From: Vitis vinifera | Lineage: Eukaryota > Streptophyta > Magnoliopsida > Vitales > Vitaceae | Reading direction: 5' to 3' | Assembly (NCBI RefSeq): GCF_030704535.1 | Contig: NC_081820.1 | Coordinates: forward strand, 22,519,001-22,583,000 | Length of the DNA stretch: 64,000 nt | In this document: positions 9,049-43,604 of the stretch, in pieces | Position numbering within the stretch: the first letter of the stretch is position 1 | Layout: each line of letters begins with the position of its first letter | The notes under the pieces: generated by a model | The model's database searches: none | What the model was told of the DNA's origin: nothing | The model's input: the letters and a program-made list of their open reading frames with translations, nothing else | Position numbers and translations under genes: made by a program

Positions 9049-12000
9049 ATGGCTTCCCTTCTTTTGATTGTTCTTCTCTTGGCGTTTACGTGGCCTTTCT
9101 GTGATTGTTCCACCCAAGTGTAAGAGACCCATCTCAATTCTCACATTTTGCCTTTACTTTCTTCGCTTCTGTTTGATGGGTATTATAGATTTGTTGTAAT
9201 CCTTTGGTCAATTTCAGTAATTTTTGGGTGTATTTTGGATTTCATATTGTTCTTGATCTGGGTTTCTGTTGTAATGCTATGTAAGAAATGTTTGTATACA
9301 CAGAAACTGAATATAACAACATCACGACTTTGTGTAGAAGAGGTATATCGGTCTTTTTGGGTTCAATTCTCATATTTCTCCTACTTTTGCTTCCGTTTAT
9401 TTTAATGGGTTCCATAGATTTGTCGATTTTTTTTTGCAATTTAGCAATTCTTGGTATATATTTGGACTTCATAGTGTTTTTTATCAGTGTTCTTGTGATG
9501 CCATGTGATATACGTGCATACATGATGTTGGCTGAGTGGGAATGGAGGAAATGGTTTTTTTCTTTGACAATTAAATGTTGTTTTTTTAGTGGGATAGTGG
9601 GGTTTGTTTAGATTTGATTTGGTCCTTAGAAAGAAAAAGTTGTTAATTCCATGTGGATTTACTGGATTTTGTTCTATATATAGCTTAAATGAAGTGTTCT
9701 TAATAAGATAAAGAATTCTACTCTGAGGCAAATATAGAGTGTCTATTCCTTTTATACTTTCAGCACCACATTGGGTAATTTCTGAAATGTTCTTGGAATA
9801 TGTTTACCAAGTTCACTCTGAATCCTTGAATTAGACAGTTTAAGTTAAGTCATTTCTATTTTACTAGTTTCTATTAATCATGCTGTAGCTGTGGTAGTTC
9901 AATTAATCCTTCGAGTTTTATTTTTACAAATTTTCTTGTTGTCTATCTTTGGACCATTGTTGGAAAAAAAATCATAATTAATTTCTGAGAAGCATTTTAT
10001 TATGGTCCATTTGGACGTGCTTTCTTGATTTTTTCTTTATTATAAGGAGAAAAAACTGCAACATTGTAGAAAATGTGTTTGGTGCACATGTCTTCTAAAA
10101 ATTGAAATGAAAATAGTGGTGAAAAGGCAAGAACAGACAAGGAGCTTTTAGAAACAGACTAAAACAGTACCAAATTGAGATGGGGTGGCGGGGCCTCTAT
10201 TATGGATCCTTTTGGGATGTTGGATTCCCAAAAAGTGGTTATCAAGTAGTGCCATGTGTAGCACAATAAGGAGATGAAGTGTTTATTACTTGGCTTGGAT
10301 GCTTGTTGTTCCAATTCCAGTTTTTCAATCTTGATACCTTGCATGATGATCCTATGTTCATAACTTTGAGCTGTATTTAGTTGTGTAAGTTGCTAAAAAG
10401 GAAGAAGTTCTCTCTTTAGAGTAAGCGAGGAAGGGGGATGGGTGTGGGAGAGTTGCCAGCATGTTAATCTTTTGCTAATATAACTGTTTTTCTTTGCTAC
10501 CCTTTCCCTTTTCAGTATCAGGAAGGAGTTAAGAATTAATAAAGTGGTGAACCAGGAAACTACTGTACAATTGGGCCATTCAATTGAATATAACAGAGTT
10601 GACCCGTCACGAGTTATCCAACTTTCATGGCAACCAAGGTCTGGTACTTTGGTGAGCTACTTATTTTGTTACTTGCTCCATGTGCCACATGGTATCAGAG
10701 TTAAGTTTAGTATATTTTTTATTAGTGAATGACTGCTGCTCGTAGAGATCTATTTCCTTTCTGAAGTACAGATTGTTGTCTAGTACAATGATTTCCTCAA
10801 TAGGTTTTGGTGCAGAAAGGATCCATTTTAGGGCACACCACTTGTAGAATCACTTTCCTGTTAGCAATCTGACATTACTTTTTTTGGGATAGGGCTTTCT
10901 TATACAGAGGATTTCTATCTGATGAGGAGTGTGATCACCTTATTTCTTTGGTAATGCCACGTTATGCTACTTTTTAATGCACCGATTTATTAAGCCTGCA
11001 TTAGTTCTGAAGGTTCGTTTTGGGTTTAGGCACTTGGCAAGAAAGAGGAGCTTGCAACAAATGGTGGTGACTCAGGGAATGTTGTCTTGAAGAGGCTGCT
11101 TAAAAGTTCAGAAGGTCCCTTGTATATAGATGTGAGTTTCCATTTTCCTTGCAGTCTTATTGACTTGTCTTGAGTTTTTCAATCGGTATGAGTCCTGCAT
11201 CTACAAGCTTATTAAAATGGAGCCTCCCATTCATGCTCTGGGTCAGTAGGTGCTAAGAAGTTTCATTGGTAATTTTTTATCAGATTAGAAAAAATATGCA
11301 CCAACTGGCCAAGTACTTGTTTTCTAGTCATGCAACTTGGAAATTCAATCTGTTATCCTTCTGATCTGTCCTTCATAGTATTTTAAATCATAACCTGTAT
11401 AAACAATAATCAGCTTTACCAATTTGGGACCTAGATTTGCTAGTTACCACTACCAAGATGCTCCCAGATGCTTAACATCTTAGTGCTGTTGATTATAGTT
11501 CTATGACATAAAACCTCTGCCACTTGAATCACTGTCTGTGTCTTCTAGGATGAAGTGGCTGCAAGGATTGAGAAAAGGATTTCGGCTTGGACTTTTCTTC
11601 CTAAAGGTATTTCTCCTTGGTCCTGGTCCTATTGCTTACATGCCATAATTTATTGTTCTTTAATTATTAGTTCATCTTTTCTCTTCTTTAGAAAACAGTG
11701 AGCCTTTGGAGGTTGTGCAGTACCAGTTTGAAAATGCCAAACAGAAATATAACTATTTTAGTAATAAATCCACATCGAAATTCGGTGAGCCTTTGATGGC
11801 AACAGTTCTGTTGCATCTCTCAAATGTCACCAGGGGCGGAGAGCTTTTCTTCCCAGAGTCAGAGGTGAGAAGCAAGCATCTTACACGCTATTATTCTTGC
11901 TGTTTTTGTTATTATTATTAGTATTTATTCCTTTAATTCTAAATCAAACTTTACTCGTTATTTACAGTTAAAAAATTCTCAGTCAAAGAGTGGGATATTA

Positions 12001-12336
12001 TCTGATTGTACAGAGAGTAGTTCTGGCTTGAGACCTGTTAAAGGGAATGCAATTCTATTTTTCAACGTTCATCCTAATGCTTCACCTGATAAGAGTAGCT
12101 CCTATGCTAGATGCCCTGTCCTCGAGGGAGAAATGTGGTGTGCTACCAAATTCTTTCACCTAAGAGCAATTGGAAGGGAAAATGTTTCATTCAAGTTAGA
12201 TGGAGGTGAATGCACTGATGAGGATGAAAATTGTCCAAAGTGGGCTAGCATTGGAGAATGTCAAAGGAATCCTATCTACATGATTGGGTCCCCAGATTAC
12301 TATGGGACATGTAGGAAGAGTTGCAATGTTTGCTGA
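9049..12336 (+). CDS. Prolyl 4-hydroxylase-like protein with ShKT domain, probably non-catalytic
   Basis: Seven exons are predicted: 9049-9119, 10516-10638, 10893-10950, 11030-11131, 11549-11606, 11692-11864 and 11968-12336, all in phase, for 317 aa. A hydrophobic N-terminus (about residues 3-18) is a signal peptide or anchor, as in ER/Golgi P4Hs that hydroxylate prolines of cell-wall proteins. RVIQLSW, AFLYRGFLSDEECDHLISL and the C-terminal six-Cys ShKT domain (C277, C284, C293, C310, C314, C317) place it in the family, closest as I recall to Arabidopsis At4g25600. The iron motif that normally reads HxDYF is K156-Y-N158-Y-F. The distal His is Y241, and the 2OG-binding Lys ten residues later is M251. 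The frame is open throughout, so this looks like a retained pseudoenzyme rather than a decayed gene. The upstream in-frame ATG at 8878 is less likely because it precedes the signal sequence. Confidence 0.88.
10951..11029 (+). other. Short 79-bp intron in the P4H-like gene
   Basis: GTAATG at 10951 to TTTAG at 11029 gives a near-minimal plant intron between exons 3 and 4. It is noted because the other introns of this gene range from about 85 bp to 1.4 kb, and the phase-0 junction supports the model. Confidence 0.7.
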
Positions 12337-14191: not shown

Positions 14192-15475
14192 TTAAAGAAG
14201 CTCCATGCATTCCCCAATACCAGCGAAATCTTTTACAGTGAACCCAACTTTCTCAAACTTCCCTTTCTCATTGCTCTCTCTGAACTTCAAATAGTCTGCA
14301 CAAACAAATGGTTGGTAGATCCTTGAATTCCCTTCTCCAACCACTTCATTGGGTGAAATTATTACCTTGTCATCTTCAAAACACCAAAAGAAAGCGAGGG
14401 AGAGCCGGTTTACATGCTGTTGTTTTAACACAACTCGGTGCTCAGATGATCTTAAATTTGCATTGCTCCAAGCTTGCATCAAGTCCCCAATGTTCACCAC
14501 CAGTGTTCCTTCACATGGGTTTATGTCCATCCACTTCCCTTCCTTGGATCTCACTTGAAGCCCACCAATCTCATCCTGATATACAATTGTGATGCAGCTC
14601 ATGTCAGTGTGCATGCCTAGCCCTTCTACTTCTTTTGTGCTCTCTGGTGGTGAATAGTTGTTGATTCTCAAATAACCATTGCAGTTGTTGAATTCGGATT
14701 CATATAGTCTCTTCTCAAAATCATTTCCTAGACACATCAGTACAACCTCAATCATTCTTTTTGAGAGCTGAGACATCTTGGTACAGTATTCCTGGAACAC
14801 CTCACTGTCAAAGCAAATGAATTAGTGATAGCAAAATGAAATGAAGCTTAACCAACATGAATGATCACAACTGCTAACTGGGCTGTTTCCAAGTCACAAG
14901 GAAATGAAAATGAATAGGTTTATTTGTGTGGTCATGCCTTTTTCCTTTCTTTTTTGTTTTTTTTGTTTTTTTTTGTTTTGTCTTCTTGTAGTTTCTGGAT
15001 GAGTCTATTTCAAAGCATGCTGACAACTCCCCTCTCAAAAAGACATGGAAAATGCATCAGAATGGGCTAATTTCATGCAACTGTGAAATGTTTAGTTTTA
15101 CCTGAATTCAGAATTCGGGTGGTTGAAGACTACTTCTGCAGAACTCTGTGCAGAGGTGAAGAAGTCAGGTCCAGAAACACGAAAACTCTCAAAGAAAGGG
15201 GAGGCAATGAAATGGGGAGTGTATGTCCTCAAGGATGATGAAGGCCCAACCTTGAGCTTGGAAACAGAAGGGAGGCAGAAGAGAGAGTTTGAGAGAGATT
15301 TGAGCTTCTTGAAAAGATCCATGGAGATTCCATGGTTAGTTATGTGGAAGAAACCCCATTCCTTGCAGGCCAACAAGAGGGATGAAAGAGATGATGGATC
15401 AAAAGGCTGAGACTGCCCAATGTCAAAAACAGGAAGCTCTATAGAAGTCTGAGACTCAGGCATCATCCCCATCAA
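14192..15475 (-). CDS. 2-oxoglutarate/Fe(II) dioxygenase, gibberellin 20-oxidase-like
   Basis: Two exons on the minus strand, 15475-15102 and 14804-14192, join in phase (AG|T) to give 328 aa, a normal length for the plant DOXC class. The N-terminal half has IELPVFDIG and CKEWGFFHITNHGI of the DIOX_N domain. The catalytic half has the iron triad H190-x-D192 (GMHTD) and H247 (SSEHRVV), and the 2OG-binding R258-L-S260. All cofactor ligands are present, so an active soluble oxygenase is expected. It resembles the proteins annotated as gibberellin 20-oxidase-like; the true substrate cannot be read from sequence and could be a hormone or a specialised metabolite. Its neighbour at 9-12.3 kb has a different 2OG oxygenase fold, is read on the other strand, and has lost its ligands. 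Confidence 0.88.
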
Positions 15476-17650
15476 GGAAAATGAGATATGGTTAGTTTTT
15501 CAGTTAGATTGGGGGGTTAGCACTGCTAAATATATAGGGAGAGAACATTATATTCACATGCATACTCAGATGTGAATGCATACATACTTGCATTATATGA
15601 TACAATGATTCTTTATAACTCATGCGTCAAAGGTTCCAGATTTGACATTTTTTCAGAGTTTAAAGCATCTGGAGGAATTGGTCTAGTGGTCCAAAACCTA
15701 GCACAAGCAAGGTTGGGATATGTTGTAGTCGTCAAGAAGAGTAATTTAAAATTGAACTAGGATCAATGAAAATACACGCTTGCATGGACATCTCAATAAT
15801 TTACTCTACATGTTTGGTGTTCTGGTTTATATAATACGCGAGGAAGAAGTTGTATGCCAAGTTTCATGGACTTCAATGCAGGAACAGCTATTTTAAAGGG
15901 CTTGGTACAGAACAGCTAGGCTGGTTCTGGAAGGATAATTTTAGGATTGTTTATTGTGAAGGTCAATGAAATGGAGTTGTTAAATGGGGAGCAAAGGGGA
16001 AGCAAGAAGCAGGAATGGTGGAGGTGTGCTGATATTTAAAGCTCTGTTATGAATGCATAGGCTTCTAAATTTTGGTTCTTTTCTGATGAAATTGTTGACT
16101 AGGTTCATTCATTATTTTCTACCTCAAAACAAGCAAATACAGCAAGGAAGGGTGATTTGTTTTCTTGGAAATGCTTTTCTGAATTGCTTCAGGGAGAAGC
16201 ATTTCCATCAAGCTTTTTGAAGAACTAGGCATAAGTACTGATAAATAATTTTCTCTGGATCCAATGGCACAGTTTTGACACTGCAAAAGGATTTCATTTT
16301 CTCCATTTTGCCTTAAAAGAAATCTACTATGACTATGTCTGGTTCTCGGGAAATGCAAAGGAAAAAAATAGAGAGAAAAAGTAGAAGAAAAAAATAAGTT
16401 AAAAGAAAATAAAAGATCGATTTAATTTATCTTTTACCATCAATTATTGTAGGCTATTTATCCACGCCCACATGTATCCAAGTTACATAAAGGGTAGTAC
16501 CCCAAACCTGAAGTATTCAACACATACACATGCAAAATTCAGTGACAAGTGACAACCCTAGGGCCATGCCCCTTTTTTATTTTTCCTAAGCTCCTCATAA
16601 AAAAACTTGAAAAAACACGCCCAAGAATCTGGCAAGCAATTGGTTCTGTGCTTGCCGCCCTATTCAACAATCCATCCTAGAACCTACTAGTATTTACAAT
16701 GCAAATATAGTATTCATTTGCTGACCACCTCAGTTTCCTAATGCTAGTTTCACTTAGGATAACTTAATGTTTTTGGTATTATTGAAAGTTGAAATCACAT
16801 CACATTTTTTAAGGATAATATTGATAGTTTTGAAGTTTAATTAAAGATTTTTATTTTTATTTATTTTTTTTATAGTTCTCCTTCATGTAACAAAGATCCA
16901 CACACATTAGATGGGAAAAGGGAGGAAAAGGAAAGAACCTCAAACTGGATATGATACCTGCTTCAAACTCAAAATGCTAACTATTCATCATAATAATGTA
17001 AGACAGATTACACTAAATGGAAAGAACCATTTACAACAAGTAGGTAAGGCATCATTTGGAGCAACCCATCAAATGTTCTTTAAGCTTTGAAATAATAATC
17101 ATCAAGCATCAAGTTTGGTCCAGTAAGAAAATGACAAGAGTTTTATATCTAGTGCCTCAGCACTTCATTTTCAACAGAGCACTACTTCAACCTGTGCCAT
17201 GATTGTTTTTAGCTTCTCTGAGAATCAGGGAAAAATTTCTTCTAAGAAACATTTTCTTCTAGGCAAAGTCACAAAAGGAGTGCCAACATTTTTAGAATTG
17301 GAATTAATTGAAGTTTGCTGAACTGGATCATTATTTACAAAAAAGATTCAATTTCAAGTCAATCCACCTAATTGGTTCCAAATCCAAACACATGCTATAC
17401 TTTTGTAACAATACAAGCAAATTAAAAAAGCAGCAATCTGTCCATTAATGTGAAGCTATTTGAAGCTAATTCCAACTTTCCAGCTAGAATTCAAAAGAAG
17501 ATTATATGTTAAGCATGACAAATTATTATTCAAACATATATTTTATTCAGTAAAAAGCATGCCTAAAGATGGGTTCCATTCAACTAGTGAACAGCTTTTT
17601 AAACATCACATGTGGCACCAGGCCTAACAATTGTGTATAATTTAGGAGGA
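15476..17650. other. Region without a recognisable gene
   Basis: The first few hundred bases hold the promoter and leader of the minus-strand dioxygenase. The remainder is AT-rich with short frames of no recognisable family. It may be intron or 3' flank of the CHCH-like gene further right. Confidence 0.35.
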
Positions 17651-20099: not shown

Positions 20100-22165
20100 G
20101 TTAAATACATTCATCTAATTTCTCCTATCACCTAATTTTTTTATGGGTTAATTTCAGTCACTTTTCCTCGGGTTTTGATTAAATACATCTGATCGTATTT
20201 GTTTAGAGTTTTATACACTTTCTATGGCATTTGAATTTTTGCTTAATTGAAAACTTAAAAACTGTATTTAATTAATCGAATATAATAACAGAATAAGAGA
20301 TGAGATAATATATCATATCTTATATTTAATTGGTGATAAAATATAATAAGTTATCTTATCACTTATCTTATTTTATCTTAAACATGAAATAAGATAAATA
20401 ATGGTTAATATTATTTTCCATTTTTTTATATCTCTTATTTATGAGATATGCTTATCTTAAGTTAAAGTATAGGATATACATATAAAAAAAATATATATAT
20501 ATTCTTTTTATTAATTTTTTAGTTTTTTATATTATTTATTTTTCAAATAATAAAGTTTAATTAAGAAATTAAATTTATAGTTAAAAATAAAAACTAAAAA
20601 AATTTATGAAATATATGGTAAGATATATAAATTTTTTATGGTATTATTTAATATATAAATTTTTTTATATATTGAATAATGTAATATTATATAATAATTT
20701 TATTTATAAAATTTAAATATTTTAATCATAAATATTATTATTTAATAAATAATTAATTTTTAATAAATTTTAATTTATTGAATAATTTCTAAATATCAGT
20801 AAATGGCTGAGAAATTTCATATATTTTTAATAATAAATATTGAAATGAAAATATAATTTTTATCTAAATAAATATAAAAAATTAAAAAGTAAAATTTTAT
20901 TTTTATTTATTTTATGAATTAAATATAAACATGACATAATATAATTTTTTAATAAATTTTAAATTATTGAACAATTTCTAAATATCCTAAGAAATTTCAT
21001 ATATTTTTAATAATAAATATTGATATGTAATATAATTTTTATTAGATATATAATACCTTAAAATATTACGGCTATTAGATAATAGTTTTAAAAATTGGAT
21101 AGTATCAACGAGTCAAAAAAGCCTTTTCTTTTTTAATATTTATATTGTTTTTTTATTTATATTTATTTATTTATTTTTAATTTATCTTTTATTTTGAATT
21201 TATATCATCATTTTATTTTTAACTACTTTCTTATCTCATTAATTCTATTTTAAAAAAATTACTCTCACTTCACTCTTAATTTTTTTTTTAATATTTATCC
21301 TTTTAATTTTAAAATATTAAAAACATAATTTTACTAAAAAAAATGCTACAATATAAAAAAATTAATGAAACCCTAATATTTTATAAATTAAAATTAATTT
21401 GATAAGATAAATTATTAATAATTTTAATTATTTAAATAAATTAATGTTAATAGAAAAAATTGTAACCTCATATTTGTAATAAAATTTTATAAATTAAATC
21501 TCAAATAAAATATTTTATATAAATCAATTTAATTTTTTTATTTAAAATGTAATAAAACATGTTTTAATAAAAATATTTAATTTTTTTTTAAAAAATAAAT
21601 ATAAATATATTAAATGAATTTAAGCTATTTTTTAAAATAAAAATTTAATAAATATAATTTATAGTCATACTTATATCAATTACACTTATAAAACAACTTT
21701 AAAATGTGTATTTTTATTTATTTTATCATTTTTGAAAGTTTCCAATCATTTTAATGAATTTTGAACTATTTTTATTTTATCGATATTTTTTGTTAGATAT
21801 ATATTTCTCCGATATATCCGTAATATTCAAATATCGATATATCTGTATTTACCAATATTTTAAACAAGAGATAATAAAAGTAATTAGAATAAATGTCACT
21901 AAAAAAGTAAAATAAAAATATGAATTTAAGAATAAATAAATTATCTTTATTTATTACTTAAAATTGTTTTTACTTTAAATTATACTATTAAGTTATTTTA
22001 CTAAATATACTTAATTTATTTGATAATTTAAATTAAGTATTAAGTGAATTTTAAGTCGTTAAGTAGGTTCACAAAAAATAAAAAACAACCCCCAAAGAAT
22101 TATAAATTTTAGTAAGGAAGCTACAACACGTTTCCAAAAAAAAAAACCTTCTTTCTCTTTGTTTC
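20100..22165. other. Very AT-rich intergenic block with internal repeats
   Basis: No gene is seen. About 20745-20860 and 20940-21045 are imperfect copies of each other (both with TTCATATATTTTTAATAATAAATATTGA-type cores). 21895-22070 is a reverse-oriented partial copy of the MITE-like repeat at 296-1190. The last 100 bases hold the promoter and leader of the first F-box gene. Confidence 0.45.
21895..22070 (-). repeat. Partial reverse copy of the 296-1190 MITE-like repeat
   Basis: Words such as AAAATATGAATTTAAGAATA and AAGTTATTTTACTAAATA match the complement of the left half of the repeat at 296-742. It ends about 200 bp before the F-box start codon. Confidence 0.5.
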
Positions 22166-22273
22166 TTGATTCTGAGTCTGAATCCAACTACAAATTGGAG
22201 TCGAATTAATAAAATCAGATCCGTACATTCCAAATTCTTTACCTTTGCCTTCTTCATCCTTGAGAAGACGATT

Positions 22274-23641
22274 ATGGCTTCAGGTTCAGGTTGGGGACGG
22301 CTTCCAGAAGCGCTTTTACATTCAATATTGGATTACATGGTCCCCATTGACGGCCGGATCAAGTTCAGCGCCGTGTGCAGCCAATGGAGACGAGTTGCGT
22401 GGGAGCATTGCCGTGAGCTGCGCTCTAAGCATACACAACAACTTCCATTACTCATGGTTCCCACCCCAGACAACAGCAAGGTAAGACGTAGTCTGTACAG
22501 CGTCACCCGCAAAACCCTATGTCGATCCCAGTTATCGGTACCTCATAATAAGAGGTGTTGCGGGTCTTCCCATGGCTGGTTGATTACCGTCGATGATAGT
22601 TCTGTGGTCACCTTGTTCAACCCTTTTTCTGGAAAAATCATTTCTTTTCCTCCCCTTCGAAGATTAGAATCTGAAAAACGGCTCGTACGCGAATATGCTG
22701 GAGTGGTGGATTCATCATGTCGTAAACAAGTGATGGAAGAATTCAGCTCATCGGAAAGAGAAGAAGAAGAAGATGAGGCGGAGGAAGAAATCAACCATGA
22801 TTACCAGGAAGATGAGGGAGAAATCAATGATATTGCAGAAGAAGAAGAAACTGAGGGTGTTCCAGATTATATGAACGGAGCAGATAAAGTTTCCGAGAGC
22901 GATTATTCCATCTGGAAGGCCGTGCTATCTGTGGATCCCGATCTAAACCCAAGTGACTACGTCCTTATGGTCATATGCGGCATTCAGAAGAGGCTAGCAT
23001 TCATTCAATCAGTTGATAAAGACTGGACTTACATTAGCAAAAAATCATGTTCCACTCGGAACATACGTCGTCCCGCAGGCAATATCGCCGACATTAAATA
23101 CTCCAAAGGGATGTTTTATGCCCTTAATGAACGGGGTGGCCTTTTATCTTGTGATGTCAGCGGAAGTCTGAAAGTGAAGATGATCACTCCAAATGATATG
23201 TCCTTCTCCTTCAAGAGGAAGCTCTATCTTGGAGAATCCTCAGGTGGGGATCTATTACGGGTGATCAACGTACTCGACGAAAAGTTTAGGACCATTGAAT
23301 TTGAGGTTCATGGACTTGGAGATGGATGTGGTAGAGCAAAATGGAAGCAGGTAGAGAGCTTGGGTGATGCAGCCTTGTTCTTGGGAGACAACCATTCAAT
23401 TACGATTCTAGCATCTGATTTTCATGGATGTCAACCAAATTCTATATACTTTTCCCACAATCATTCTGAATTCATGGCCGTTCTTGATGGGGGTGTTTTG
23501 AAATTGCTTTATCTACAGTGGGCGCCTTATGACATTGGAGTATTCAACTTAGAAGATGGAAAATTCGCACGACATCACGTATTGGATCCTTCTCAGAGGT
23601 TAATGCCTCCTCCGATATGGATTTTACCAACTCTTATGTAA
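22274..23641 (+). CDS. F-box protein with DUF295 (KIB-type) domain, copy 1
   Basis: A single-exon gene of 455 aa. The start was placed at MASGSGWGRLPEAL because both other family members in the window begin at the same point; an in-frame ATG 36 codons upstream falls in the leader. Residues about 7-46 are the F-box (LPEALLHSILDYM, KFSAVCSQWRRVAW), which binds SKP1 in SCF ubiquitin ligases. The rest is the DUF295 beta-propeller-like part, with CGSSHGWLITVDD, TLFNPFSGKII and the C-terminal PYDIGVFNLEDGK and PPPIWILPTLM. A strongly acidic Glu/Asp insert at about 160-205 interrupts the domain; its length differs among the copies. It presumably selects a substrate for ubiquitination; which is unknown. 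Confidence 0.9.
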   Translation: MASGSGWGRLPEALLHSILDYMVPIDGRIKFSAVCSQWRRVAWEHCRELRSKHTQQLPLLMVPTPDNSKVRRSLYSVTRKTLCRSQLSVPHNKRCCGSSHGWLITVDDSSVVTLFNPFSGKIISFPPLRRLESEKRLVREYAGVVDSSCRKQVMEEFSSSEREEEEDEAEEEINHDYQEDEGEINDIAEEEETEGVPDYMNGADKVSESDYSIWKAVLSVDPDLNPSDYVLMVICGIQKRLAFIQSVDKDWTYISKKSCSTRNIRRPAGNIADIKYSKGMFYALNERGGLLSCDVSGSLKVKMITPNDMSFSFKRKLYLGESSGGDLLRVINVLDEKFRTIEFEVHGLGDGCGRAKWKQVESLGDAALFLGDNHSITILASDFHGCQPNSIYFSHNHSEFMAVLDGGVLKLLYLQWAPYDIGVFNLEDGKFARHHVLDPSQRLMPPPIWILPTLM

Positions 23642-25311: not shown

Positions 25312-28300
25312 ATGGTAAGCAAGTCCAACCTCCTCTTATTTTCACCTTTACAGTCATCGATTCTCAGCTCCCTAGTAGAATATGTAAAATCTGCGATTGA
25401 TTGCTTCCACAAGGAACCCTAGACATATATATTTATTTATTTATTTTTAATTATGTTTAGATCTAGAAATTTTGTAATCGAGGCTCGATTTTTCTTTTGG
25501 GTTTTGGACTAGAGAAACTAAAATTTCTTATGAACCGAGACTGTAAAATGATGGATTAAAAATTTTAATTTATTTTAATTTCCTCCGTTTTCTCAGTGAC
25601 CATATAGAGGGCGATCTCTGGTTCTGTTTCACATGTGGAATTTAATGTTTAATTTATGCTTCGATGCGGTTTTCATTTTCTTGGTTACGAAACTATGGCA
25701 ATTCCGGAGATCCTGGTTTGTTATTTATCATACAATGGATTACATAAAAAGTTCTTAAATATTATAAATAGATTTTTGATATTTCAAAATTTTTTTATAA
25801 GTACTTTCAAATATTTTACAAAATTTTCATATGATAATAGTAATGTTACATTTTTATCATTGATTTTCTAAATCTTCCCGACCATGCTCTTGGAGACCCT
25901 TTAAGGCCATAAAGGTACTTCTTAAGTTTGCAAACTTTGTTCTTCTAAGACTTGTCACCAAACCAAACCCAGGTGGAGTGTTCGTGTATGTCTCTTCTTT
26001 AAGTTGCCATGTAAAAAAACATTCGTCACATCAAACATTCTTGACCCCCACCATTCTCACCATTTCTAGGAAAAACTTGTGACAGCTTATCTTCAATTCC
26101 TCCAATCTCCTTTGAAGATAATTGAATGTGAAATATGGTTTCCTTTCAAAGAAAGTAACATCCATGGTAATATATGATCTTTTTATGGGAGGATTGTAGT
26201 ACTTATATCCCTTTTGAGTGAAGATATCCAAGGAAGACGCAACTAAGGGCTCTTGGATTGAGTTTATCTTTAGATTGCTTGGGAATGCAAATGAAAGATA
26301 AACAACCAAATATTTTTGGAAGAAGTGTTTCAATACCTTTAAAGTTAGGAAAAATACTTTGAGAGTATATTAATAGGGTTTGAATTAATACAATTCTTAT
26401 TTACCTATATATAAAAAATAGGGTTTGAAGTCTAGGACTCGAGAAGGCATTCAATATATTAAGAATGTAGTAGCCAAAATGGCTTCCCCTAATATAATTT
26501 GGAGTATTCATTTGAAAAAGTAAAGGCCTAGCTACTTTTGGGAGATGTTTGTTTTTCCTCTTTGTTACCCCATTTTGTTGTGAGGCATTTAAATATGAAG
26601 ATTGATGCACAGTACCTTCATTTTAGAGATAGGTGACAAGATTAGATTGAAGTATTCTCTCCCATTATTTTACCTTAAGGTATGGATTTTGGTACCAAAT
26701 TGGGTACAAACCAATTTGTGGAACATTAGGAAAATGGAATTAACTTCTGATTTGGATTTTAGGAGATAGACCCAAGTAATATAGAGTAGTCATTAATGAA
26801 GGTAAAAACCATCTAAAACCCAAAATATTTGGAATTCTAGGGAGTCCCTAAACATCCATTTGTATTAAAGTAAAAGGAGAAGTTTCCTTTTTATTTATCA
26901 TTGGAAAAGGTACATGTTGGTGTTTTGTAAGCTCACAAACCTCACAATGAAAGTCATGGAATTTAGTTTTATCAAACAATGTGGGAGTCATTTTTTCCAA
27001 GAGAAGGAAAAGTGGATGTCCCCCTACCATTGTTGCCATAGCCATATTGGATCAACTTTTGAGGGATTGTTGGTGGTAGCAAAAGCTGGTGGAATAGAAG
27101 CACCAATCTTCCAAGGTGTAATGAGGTGGTAGAGTCTACCTTTCCTCTCACCATGCCCAATCATCCTCCTTATTATCCTGTCTTGAAAAATGCAATGGGA
27201 ATAGGTATATGTCACACAATTCAGATCCTTAGTAAATTTTCTGGCAGACAACAGATTACAAGACAATTTGGGAACATGTAACACATATTTCAAGGTCAAG
27301 AAAGGAGTAATGGAGGCTATGCCTTGACCAATTATGGAAGAAAAAGTGCCATCAACAACCTTTACTTTTGGCTCACCTGAAAGTATTGTGTAAGTGGAAA
27401 AAAAATTGGAGTGACTTATCATATGGTCAGTGGCACTAGAATTTATTATCCAAGCGCTGGATGAGTAATCCTTAGAGGCACTTAAAATTTCAATATTACC
27501 CGTTTGGATGAAAGAATGGGAAATAATATTTGTAGTGGGAATTTGTGCATGTGTTTCAAGCTGGCTGAGAAATGTTTTCAGCTTTTTGTAATGCTCCTTG
27601 CTAAGCTTCACAAGAAACATCACCGGTTTCAGACATTTTTTAGGAAATTACAAGAAAGTTTCTGGTTTTTGGAAAAAAACAGGAGAGAATCTCAAGGGAA
27701 TTTATAATAGGAAACTAAGAAACCAACATTTTTTTTTTTTGATAAGTAAATCATAATTGTATTAAAATAGAGGCGAAAAGCTACAAAGCATACAGGGGGT
27801 ATGCAAAGCAACTAGCACCTCTCAAACAAAAAAGAAAGCCAACAGAGCCTCACCACCCCTTAATTGGAAGCTAACCACTTCAAGAAACCTATAAGGGATA
27901 GAGACGCGTCTCCAATATACAATCTAGCCCAGCTCCATAAATTACAAACAAAAAAATTCTTAAGTTTTTGAATATCTAACACTCCCCCCCTAAAAGCTAG
28001 TCTATTCCTCTTCTTCCAAACCGTCCAAAAAATACACAACGGTATGGATTTCCATATCTTTTTCCTTTTCTTCCCTACAAAAGAGCCCCTCCAACTAGTT
28101 AAAACCTTCTTTACAGTTTCTGGAAAGACCCATTACACACTTGATAACCCAAGGACGATATTCCCCAAGACTCTGACCGCTATACGGTATATAAGAATAT
28201 GATTTATAGTTTCTTCTTCACACCCACACAGAAAGCAACAATTAGGGAGCTGCCATCCTCTTTTCTGAAGCCTATCAACTAAGAAACCAACATTTGATGT

Positions 28301-35657: not shown

Positions 35658-36322
35658 TTAAAATCATTACAATGAGTTTGAAGTTAATTTTTAATTTTTT
35701 TCTTCTTTCATATTTCCTTGGAACCAAACATAACATATTGATTTTATATTGTACGTGATTTACACATCCAATTTATGCAATCTTTGACGTCTTGATAAGA
35801 ACCAAACACGATGTTGAGAACTAGAGAGTTATGACAAAAATATAAAACATATGAAGCCTTTTATCCTTTGGCCAATCTTAATTTTATTTGTTTTTATTTT
35901 TTCTTTTATAAAATGAAAAAATAAAAAATATTGAATTTATAAAAAAATAATAATAATTAGAGCAAAAAAATATTAATACATAAATTGTCAAAATAAAAAT
36001 TTACATATATAAAAAAAGTTAAACAAAAATTAATAGATGTTAAAAAGTGGCTCATATTAACAAGTAGAAACCGAATTTTAAAACTTTCCCTCCCTCGGTA
36101 GATTTTTTTTTTTTTTAAACAGGATTTTATATTGACAAGAGTTCTAATTGAGATATATTTTGGTAGCCCACAATCCCAAGCCAATTACAATATTATATAT
36201 TGCATTAAAGCTAGGGTTTTGAGAACCATTGCATTAAAGCCTAGGGTTTTGTGGTTCCATTACACCTTAATCAAAGCCAAAACATCTTCTTCTGATTCTT
36301 CCAGCTTATTAAGAAAGTTGTT
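35494..36322. other. Intergenic AT-rich DNA with (AT)n microsatellite
   Basis: An (AT)n run lies at 35625-35655. The rest is AT-rich with no gene, ending in the promoter and leader of F-box copy 2. The phrase CATTGCATTAAAGC.TAGGGTTTTG is repeated at about 36201 and 36229. Confidence 0.45.
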
Positions 36323-37693
36323 ATGGCTTTAGGTTGGGAATCGCTTCCAGAGGCCCTTTTGGATTCAATATTAGATAATCTAGTCCCCATTGCAGACTGT
36401 ATCAGGTTCAGTGCAGTTTGCAGGGCATGGCGATGCGTTGCGGTCGAGAATTTCCGGCGGATACGTAGAAGCAGTAGATATGGTCATCTTCAACAACAGC
36501 AACTTCCATTACTGATGCTTCCCGCCAAAAACAGCAGGAGGCAGAGGCGCAGTTTATACAGTGTGACCCAGACAAGGGTTTTTGATTTCCAGTTACCTGT
36601 TCCTTATAACGTGAGGTTTTGCGGTTCTTCCCATGGGTGGTTGATTGTGGTGGATGATGCTTTCAAGGTAACCTTATTCAACCCATTCTCTGGTGAAATC
36701 ATCAATCTTCCTCCTATTAGGAGATTAGCATTCGAAAAGCGATTTCGAGAAGAAATCAGTGAAATAATCTCTAAAGGAGAGGAATATGAAAGACAACTGA
36801 GAGAAGAATATGGTGAAGAAGTAAATATCGAAGATGAAGAAGAAGAAGACGACGACGAAGAAGAAGAAGAAGATGTGGAAGAGTACATGGAAGAGGAGGA
36901 AGATGGTGGAGAAGATGACGTGAAGGAAGAAGCCATTGAGGGCCGTAGTGAGTATTCCATTCTAAAGGGTGTATTGTCCGCAGATCCTAGTGTAAATCCA
37001 AAGGAATATGTGCTGATGGTCATATATGGTTTAGAGCAGCGGCTAGCATTCATCAAACCAGACGATAAAGAGTGGACTTATCTTGACGGTAGAACTTGTT
37101 GCTTTGAGGATCATGACAAAACAGATTCCCCTCCTCCTGTCAGCCTGCTATGGCATATGACTGACATTATTTTCTACAAGCAACGATTCTATGCCCTCTA
37201 TTGCATGGGTCAACTTTTATCTTGCCATATCGATACCAGTACTGGTTTCAAAGTGAAGAAGATAACTCCACAGGATGGTTTGGGTCCTACCTTTGGTAAG
37301 GCGTATTTGGTTGAGTCCCTTGAAGGAGGAGACATCTTGAGGGTTTTAAGAAGATATGGTAAGAACAAAATGACTACTGGGTTTAAGATTTATAGACTAG
37401 CGGATGGTTATGGAGATCCGGAGTGGACTGAAGTAAAGAGCTTAGGTGACTTTGCCTTGTTCTTGGGAGAGAATCATTCTATTTCGGTTTCAGCTTCTGA
37501 TTACCCTGGATGTGAACCAAATTCCATATACTTTTGTGGGGATCATATTCGCTGCTCGCATAGGAGACGGAAGGATCCTTATGATATTGGTGTATTCAAC
37601 TTAGAAAATGGAAGAGTTGTAGAGAGTTACAGGGGAGATGCTATACAGTGGTCAATGCCACCACCCATTTGGATTTTGCCAACATTCATGTGA
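36323..37693 (+). CDS. F-box protein with DUF295 (KIB-type) domain, copy 2
   Basis: A single-exon gene of 456 aa starting MALGWESLPEALLDSILDNL. The F-box covers about residues 5-45. The DUF295 part includes CGSSHGWLIVVDD, TLFNPFSGEIINLPP, EYVLMVIYG and the C-terminal DPYDIGVFNLENGR and PPPIWILPTFM. The acidic insert (about residues 170-215) is longer than in copy 1 and is built from GAA/GAG/GAC runs, which suggests expansion by codon slippage. It is clearly a paralogue of copy 1, with which it shares the downstream flank. The role should be substrate recognition in an SCF ligase; the substrate is unknown. Confidence 0.92.
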   Translation: MALGWESLPEALLDSILDNLVPIADCIRFSAVCRAWRCVAVENFRRIRRSSRYGHLQQQQLPLLMLPAKNSRRQRRSLYSVTQTRVFDFQLPVPYNVRFCGSSHGWLIVVDDAFKVTLFNPFSGEIINLPPIRRLAFEKRFREEISEIISKGEEYERQLREEYGEEVNIEDEEEEDDDEEEEEDVEEYMEEEEDGGEDDVKEEAIEGRSEYSILKGVLSADPSVNPKEYVLMVIYGLEQRLAFIKPDDKEWTYLDGRTCCFEDHDKTDSPPPVSLLWHMTDIIFYKQRFYALYCMGQLLSCHIDTSTGFKVKKITPQDGLGPTFGKAYLVESLEGGDILRVLRRYGKNKMTTGFKIYRLADGYGDPEWTEVKSLGDFALFLGENHSISVSASDYPGCEPNSIYFCGDHIRCSHRRRKDPYDIGVFNLENGRVVESYRGDAIQWSMPPPIWILPTFM

Positions 37694-42513: not shown

Positions 42514-43013
42514 TAAGAGAAAATAACTTTTTTTTAGTATCTTTTTCCTTTCTTTAATCCTTTTTCGAAACCTAACATAAGGTTTAAAAAACTAACCAGA
42601 GAATGAGATACTAGATTATAAGGATTGCAAATTAAAACATAATAATTGAAAAAAAGAAGTGTTAGAAAGTATGATTCTATTTTTTTAATAAATAAAAAAT
42701 TCATTAATACTTTCCTAATAAAAAAATATTCTTATAAAAGAGTTTATAATGGAAATATTTCCTTTTTATGAATTGACAATTATATAATTAGTTTTTTATA
42801 TGAAATCTAATTAAAAAGAATGTATATCTATGGTAAGAGATTTTGAAAAAATAAATAAATATAAATATAAAATAACAATAAATTTTAATAAGGAAAATAA
42901 TTTATTTTATTAGGAAGAAGTTTACCTATTTAGGTTTGGAGTTGGATTAATAAGTAGTATCTCGTCTTCACTTCTTCATCCTAGTCTTCTTCTTCATCTT
43001 TGGAGAAACGAGT

Positions 43014-43604
43014 ATGGCTTCAGTTTCTGGTTGGGGACAACTCCCGGACGGGCTTTTATACTCAATACTAGAGTATATGGTCCCCATTGATGAGCGTGTC
43101 AAGTTCAGCGCCGTGTGCCGCCGATGGAGAAGAGTTGCATGGGAGCATTGCCGTGAGCATACAAGCACACCTCCATTAGTCCTGGTTCCCACTCCAGATA
43201 ACAGCGAGCGAAGGCGTAGTTTGTACAACGTCACCCGCAAAACCCTATGTCAATCCCAGTTATCGGACGAAGAAGATTCAGAGGAAGATGATTCGGACGA
43301 AGGAGATGATCAAAACGAAGAAGATTCGGAGAAAGAATATAGCGAATCGGACAAAGAAGATTGGAAAGAAGGAGAGGAGGAGGAGGAGGAGGAAGAAGAG
43401 ATCATTGATTCAGCAGAAAGGGAGGCTTTTGAACGAGCTAGAGGGAAGGCTGTTGTACGAGTTGAAGAGAAGAGGAAGAGAGAAACCGTGACCGATTTTT
43501 CCATCCAGAAGGGGGTGCTATTTATGGATCCTGAACTAAATCCAGACGACTACGTGCTCATGGTCATATATGGTTCTGAGGAAAGACTAGCCTTCATTAA
43601 ATAA
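43014..43604 (+). CDS. Shortened F-box ORF, copy 3 (truncated DUF295 family member)
   Basis: The frame encodes 196 aa. Residues about 5-46 are a clean F-box (LPDGLLYSILEYM, KFSAVCRRWRRVAWEHC). After TRKTLCQSQLS it jumps directly into an acidic Asp/Glu/Ser stretch (about 84-140), skipping the CGSSHGWL and TLFNPFSG part, and ends at EERLAFIK followed by a stop where the paralogues continue for about 190 residues. It is therefore a copy with an internal deletion and a lost C-terminus. It could still bind SKP1 without a substrate domain; whether it is expressed is unknown. Leader and start match copy 1. Confidence 0.7.
   Translation: MASVSGWGQLPDGLLYSILEYMVPIDERVKFSAVCRRWRRVAWEHCREHTSTPPLVLVPTPDNSERRRSLYNVTRKTLCQSQLSDEEDSEEDDSDEGDDQNEEDSEKEYSESDKEDWKEGEEEEEEEEEIIDSAEREAFERARGKAVVRVEEKRKRETVTDFSIQKGVLFMDPELNPDDYVLMVIYGSEERLAFIK

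Follow-up and report, generated by a model that had tools for sequence, protein, structure and literature searches.

A prolyl 4-hydroxylase 12-like ShKT protein of grapevine that has lost its cofactor ligands and is probably kept in a non-catalytic role

A preliminary description of the grapevine (Vitis vinifera) locus studied here gave Arabidopsis At4g25600, which we take to be AtP4H12, a ShKT-tailed prolyl 4-hydroxylase (P4H), as degenerate at some of the cofactor-binding positions that the grape gene has lost. This holds for the gene as a whole, AtP4H12 being a printed exception: according to the text of PMC3668137, which cites Vlad et al. 2007a, the three Fe ligands and the 2-oxoglutarate (2OG)-binding lysine are conserved in the Arabidopsis P4Hs except AtP4H11 and AtP4H12. 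It does not extend to particular positions, which that text does not name. Among the literature titles and abstract openings, no functional study of the P4H12 protein was found. AT4G25600 is listed with a value of -3.08 in a table of melatonin-changed redox genes (PMC3969325) and is also tabulated in work that sequenced a yeast two-hybrid library (PMC6303091), which suggests that it is transcribed in Arabidopsis. In other plants, olive OeP4H12 was placed among grape and tomato genes in a tree, and 7 of the 16 olive P4Hs were reported as detectably expressed in roots or leaves, OeP4H12 not being among those named there (PMC10252747); a maize gene bears the annotation ‘putative prolyl 4-hydroxylase 12’ (PMC9490995), and cotton GhP4H12, whose numbering may be unrelated, was reported as unexpressed in the torus (PMC9985220). 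Plant P4Hs do pair: according to a review (PMC7769824), AtP4H5 heterodimerizes in the Golgi with AtP4H2 and with AtP4H13.

The DNA analysed here, called the window, is a stretch of 64,000 nucleotides (C16:22519001-22583000). A polyphenol oxidase piece encoded on C10 of the same genome aligned with PDB chain 2p3x, the grape enzyme, across 312 residues with two mismatches, in keeping with Vitis and most likely V. vinifera. The window carries a gene whose seven exons, joined across six GT-AG introns, give 954 nt and a product of 317 aa with no internal stop (Table 1), bearing out the preliminary description, in which all seven exons were in phase. The product matched PDB chain 2jij over residues 55-265 (E 2.8e-38), and this match, together with intron positions in common with two grape paralogues on C14 and C5, places it in the plant P4H fold and family; the Pfam 2OG-FeII_Oxy_3 model scored 15.5 bits, below its cut-off of 27, and NCBIfam yielded no match. 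In the alignment with 2jij, K156, N158, Y241 and M251 fall opposite His, Asp, His and Lys, so that the loss of all four ligands claimed earlier was confirmed: the window gene has neither the HxD...H iron ligands nor the 2OG-binding Lys ten residues past the distal His. The ten-residue spacing between Y241 and M251, to which the preliminary description drew attention, is present as well, although its exactness reflects just the absence of gaps from the alignment there, because the catalytic face has drifted widely. The C-terminal six-Cys ShKT domain is complete, as had also been stated, and above the Pfam cut-off, which assigns the gene to the ShKT-bearing P4H subgroup. Judged from these residues, the product is predicted with high confidence to have no hydroxylase activity. 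Four N-glycosylation sequons were seen at residues 162, 182, 232 and 267 of the protein (exons 6-7, 11692-12336), three of them inside the catalytic domain, one of which has Pro as its next residue, and the fourth immediately beyond that domain; in an alignment read by eye, they are absent at the matching places of the C14 and C5 paralogues.

Table 1. Exons, replaced ligand positions and ShKT domain of the P4H-like gene (positions in the window)
Feature	Positions	Strand	Remarks or evidence
Exon 1	9049..9119	+	Carries the start codon; its hydrophobic leader (MASLLLIVLLLAFTWPFCDCS) is, judged by eye, probably a signal peptide
Exon 2	10516..10638	+	Linker, then start of the P4H domain (VIQLSWQPR); donor GTCTGG weak-looking
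Exon 3	10893..10950	+	AFLYRGFLSDEECDHLISL
Exon 4	11030..11131	+	Degenerate counterpart of the VRTSSG motif; residue 108 changed from R to L
Exon 5	11549..11606	+	
Exon 6	11692..11864	+	Core strands; site of the lost HxD motif
Exon 7	11968..12336	+	Stop codon included; no intron where both ShKT paralogues have one
K156-Y157-N158, replacing H-x-D (iron ligands)	11745..11753	+	Translation, 2jij alignment, grape P4H alignment
Y241, replacing the distal iron-binding His	12103..12105	+	Translation, 2jij alignment, grape P4H alignment
M251, replacing the 2-oxoglutarate-binding Lys	12133..12135	+	Translation, 2jij alignment, grape P4H alignment
ShKT (ShK-like) domain, residues 276-317, six Cys	12208..12333	+	Pfam 24.3 bits, cut-off 20.9

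P4H genes were sought across the 495.6 Mb grape genome (21 contigs) with protein queries, which were used instead of the family model PF13640 because the latter returned two loci only. Four protein searches, the last two of which added no new locus, identified at least nine P4H loci, a count to be read as a lower bound, i.e. the window gene and those on C14, C5 (4.16 Mb), C4, C18, C5 (21.75 Mb), C3 (6.88 Mb), C3 (6.99 Mb) and C7; the C5 (21.75 Mb) model has no start, one stop was dropped from that of C3a and the tail of C18 was trimmed. Each of the eight other loci has all four of the ligands H, D, H and K versus none in the window gene, which was the only such degenerate P4H locus found in the genome. 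A ShKT tail scored above the Pfam cut-off at three loci (window, C14 and C5), and a fourth match, on C19, fell below it. Like the window gene, the C14 (28.6 Mb) and C5 (4.16 Mb) paralogues comprise a leader (by eye), a P4H domain and a six-Cys ShKT tail, with introns 1 to 6 in common with it in C14 and introns 2 to 6 in C5, whose model lacks intron 1, unlike the window gene and C14. Towards the end of the catalytic domain, both paralogues are interrupted by a further intron that is absent from the window gene; as the window gene and C14 are sisters, and C14 and C5 share this intron, the best reading is that the window lineage lost it, and this loss could mark that lineage when orthologues are compared. 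A search for plant orthologues in genome and viral contigs gave matches at 3 loci, i.e. two MAG records and one viral contig, with 30-32% identity, none of which could serve as an orthologue.

The loss was then scored over the whole catalytic domain by means of invariant columns, defined as those filled in at least seven of the eight active loci and identical wherever a residue is present (n = 56). The window gene has kept 35 of these, 24 of them Gly, Pro, Cys or hydrophobic, and changed the other 21, so a swap limited to the four ligands was rejected. Leave-one-out controls, each locus being scored on its own column set, kept nearly all of their columns (C14, 56/59; C5, 56/57; C4, 56/58; C18, 56/56; C3a, C3b and C7, 56/57 each), and the partial second C5 model kept 45/54. 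Beyond the four ligands, we take the active-site positions of CrP4H-1 to be R93, S95, E127, Y140, R161, W243 and H245. Among the invariant columns, 8 of the 10 belonging to the active-site set, ligands included, are lost in the window gene versus 13/46 elsewhere (one-sided Fisher P 0.004), and the four ligand columns alone gave P 0.016. The further losses fall at residues 108 and 172, both in place of Arg, at 153, in place of Tyr, and at 257, in place of Trp; S110 and E141 of the set are kept, and so is H259, whose column lies outside the invariant ones.

The ShKT tail behaved differently from the catalytic domain. Catalytic-domain identity is 46% between the window gene and C14, 43% between the window gene and C5 and 70% between C14 and C5, whereas for the tail it is 67% between the window gene and C14 and 57% between C14 and C5; the contrast of domain by pair (window-C14 versus C14-C5) gave P 0.004 for two pairs that share C14. 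Changes unique to the window gene fell on 68/213 sites of the catalytic part versus 2/42 of the tail (Fisher P 1e-4), and those unique to C14, taken as a control, on 10/213 versus 2/42 (P 1.0). Compared by domain, window-unique and C14-unique changes stood at 68:10 in the catalytic part (P 1e-11) and at 2:2 in the tail (P 1.0), so the tail of the window gene has changed no faster than that of its sister, although the two ratios do not differ significantly between the domains (Fisher P 0.10). These are signs, at the level of sequence comparison, that constraint in the window gene may now lie mainly in the ShKT tail, and the fast evolution of the catalytic domain also fits relaxed constraint there. 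Such a tail-centred pattern (2/42 versus 68/213) speaks for a reading in which the dead oxygenase is a carrier that delivers the tail to act outside the cell as a ligand, possibly of a membrane protein, as do the leader and the absence by eye of any further transmembrane-like stretch from the rest of the translation. However, the 35 kept invariant columns were judged to be beyond the need of a mere carrier, and the tail alone fails to explain the window gene because that tail is also present in the active paralogues, so we consider this delivery role unlikely.

In the protein tree, the window gene adjoined C14 with an ultrafast bootstrap of 88, two deeper splits being weak (44 and 41), and its branch was about nine times as long as that of its sister (1.26 versus 0.13 amino-acid changes per site). 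The best codon-model topology paired the two as well (log-likelihood -3344.7 versus -3353.3 and -3353.5), and intron 1, common to both and absent from the C5 model, agrees with this pairing. A codon branch model on five taxa and 255 codons yielded an omega of 0.07 for the window branch, with omega = 1 rejected (LRT 26.9, P 2e-7), a value that is poorly determined because dS on this branch is saturated (about 4.7); the 213 catalytic codons alone gave 0.11 (LRT 22.9, P 2e-6), again with synonymous change saturated. Window-branch omega did not differ from that of the rest (P 0.75 for the 255 codons and 0.40 for the catalytic codons), and it averages the time before and after ligand loss. In substitution-only neutral simulations that started from the C14 coding sequence (2000 per distance), the fraction without a stop was 11.4% at 0.05 substitutions per site, 1.45% at 0.1 and 0.2% at 0.2, and none of the 2000 runs each at 0.3, 0.5 and 1.0 remained open. 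An open frame at such a distance is hard to explain without constraint; we read the selection and open-frame results as selection for a protein, not as proof of a role, and consider it likely that the gene has been maintained by selection.

The same results bear on the possibility that the gene is unneeded and a pseudogene in early decay, one that has not yet gained a stop. The loss of all four ligands, the fast catalytic domain with its ninefold branch and the case of olive P4H12, which is not among the seven genes named as detectably expressed (PMC10252747), would suit such a decay. It is nevertheless improbable, and was rejected, given that so long a branch bears no stop or frameshift, that a neutral branch was rejected (with synonymous change saturated), that all six introns keep GT-AG and that the six-Cys tail has no more unique changes than that of its sister.

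Less probable still is a changed chemistry, in which an altered 2OG-oxygenase-like site would bind another ligand or metal. In principle, Asn, Tyr, Lys and Met have side chains that could hold some other ligand, and the retention of 35/56 invariant columns can be counted in its favour, but the counterparts at residues 108, 153, 172 and 257 have gone too, so that dissolution of the site looks likelier than a swap.

A last alternative concerns the exons themselves. The exon 2 donor (AAG/GTCTGG) is weak-looking, as are by eye the matching donors of the C14 and C5 ShKT paralogues, and a stronger-looking GTGAGC lies at 10652, 13 nt downstream. When an active grape paralogue was used as a genome-wide query, its matches at the window locus were the known exons 3, 6 and 7 only, and a spliced alignment driven by that paralogue gave identical exons from 10638 on, except that exon 4 was extended to 11135 and a 2-nt piece added at 11258-11259; the resulting two extra codons were taken as an artefact. 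Neither approach revealed a hidden exon at the locus that would restore HxD...H...K, and the claim of ligand loss is thus independent of exon choice, since the active-paralogue search finds no further matching exon there. A wrong exon choice concealing an intact active site, for which the weak-looking exon 2 donor and its stronger-looking neighbour might be cited, was rejected as next to impossible, because use of the downstream donor shifts the frame into stops and no exon was left over for the active-paralogue query to match. Intron 1 contains a 61-nt direct repeat (9134-9194 and 9363-9423, 72% identical, 229 nt apart), possibly an old tandem duplication.

Elsewhere in the window, a different class of 2OG-Fe(II) oxygenase (PF03171; 14195-14821 scores 91 bits) is encoded on the minus strand at 14192-14821, probably also at 15098-15499, about 1.9 kb downstream of the P4H-like gene and tail to tail with it; inspection by eye suggests that this oxygenase has intact HTD and HRV motifs. 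Three F-box genes lie on the plus strand (22106-23641, 36296-37693 and 42954-43604), two with KIB1-4 beta-propeller domains and the third a short open frame with the F-box only, and a retrotransposon-like Pol polyprotein fragment (Pol_BBD, 54.1 bits) lies on the minus strand at 27027-27647.

The window gene is best explained, with a probability of about 0.7, as a P4H12-like, ShKT-bearing P4H that has lost catalysis and is still kept as a protein with a non-catalytic role in the secretory pathway. Its leader would direct the product into that pathway, where it may fold as an empty double-stranded beta-helix and would work by binding, with the ShKT module and the retained outer surfaces as docking parts and either an active P4H or some other partner, whether secretory or of the cell wall, as the docking target. 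That the product is a non-catalytic partner of active P4Hs in particular is a tentative suggestion, to which we give less than even odds. The earlier proposal that the protein is kept for another role accordingly stands in its general part, i.e. the look of a pseudoenzyme that selection has kept and whose ShKT tail is intact, while its specific roles are matters that we can only infer. A wider idea would see here an old lineage of ShKT-P4H pseudoenzymes, common to flowering plants, with selection shifted from the catalytic pocket to the tail and with members that may regulate or escort active P4Hs or serve as a secreted ShKT factor; it is plausible and partly in print, and in this complete form we hold it as doubtful.

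By sequence, the closest solved relatives of the window gene are 2jij, 2jig and 3gze, presumably all Chlamydomonas P4H-1, whose aligned chains reach no further than about the end of the catalytic domain and thus show no ShKT tail. Counting the window gene among the active grape P4Hs would be a mistake, and names such as ‘putative prolyl 4-hydroxylase 12’ invite wrong assignments of enzyme function in crops. A ligand-less P4H is not a new kind, a similar loss in Arabidopsis AtP4H12 being already in print; the present analysis adds the contrast within the genome, the extent to which the active site has been lost and signs of a tail-centred constraint. If constraint on the ShKT tail proves general, P4H12 would offer a test of whether a dead hydroxylase steers the hydroxylation of cell-wall glycoproteins and peptide hormones, and the old-lineage reading, if true, would provide a plant counterpart of non-catalytic enzyme subunits. 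The nearest known case is AtP4H12, likewise a member of the P4H family, for which a published statement that leaves the lost residues unnamed reports that the Fe- and 2OG-binding residues are not all conserved (PMC3668137).
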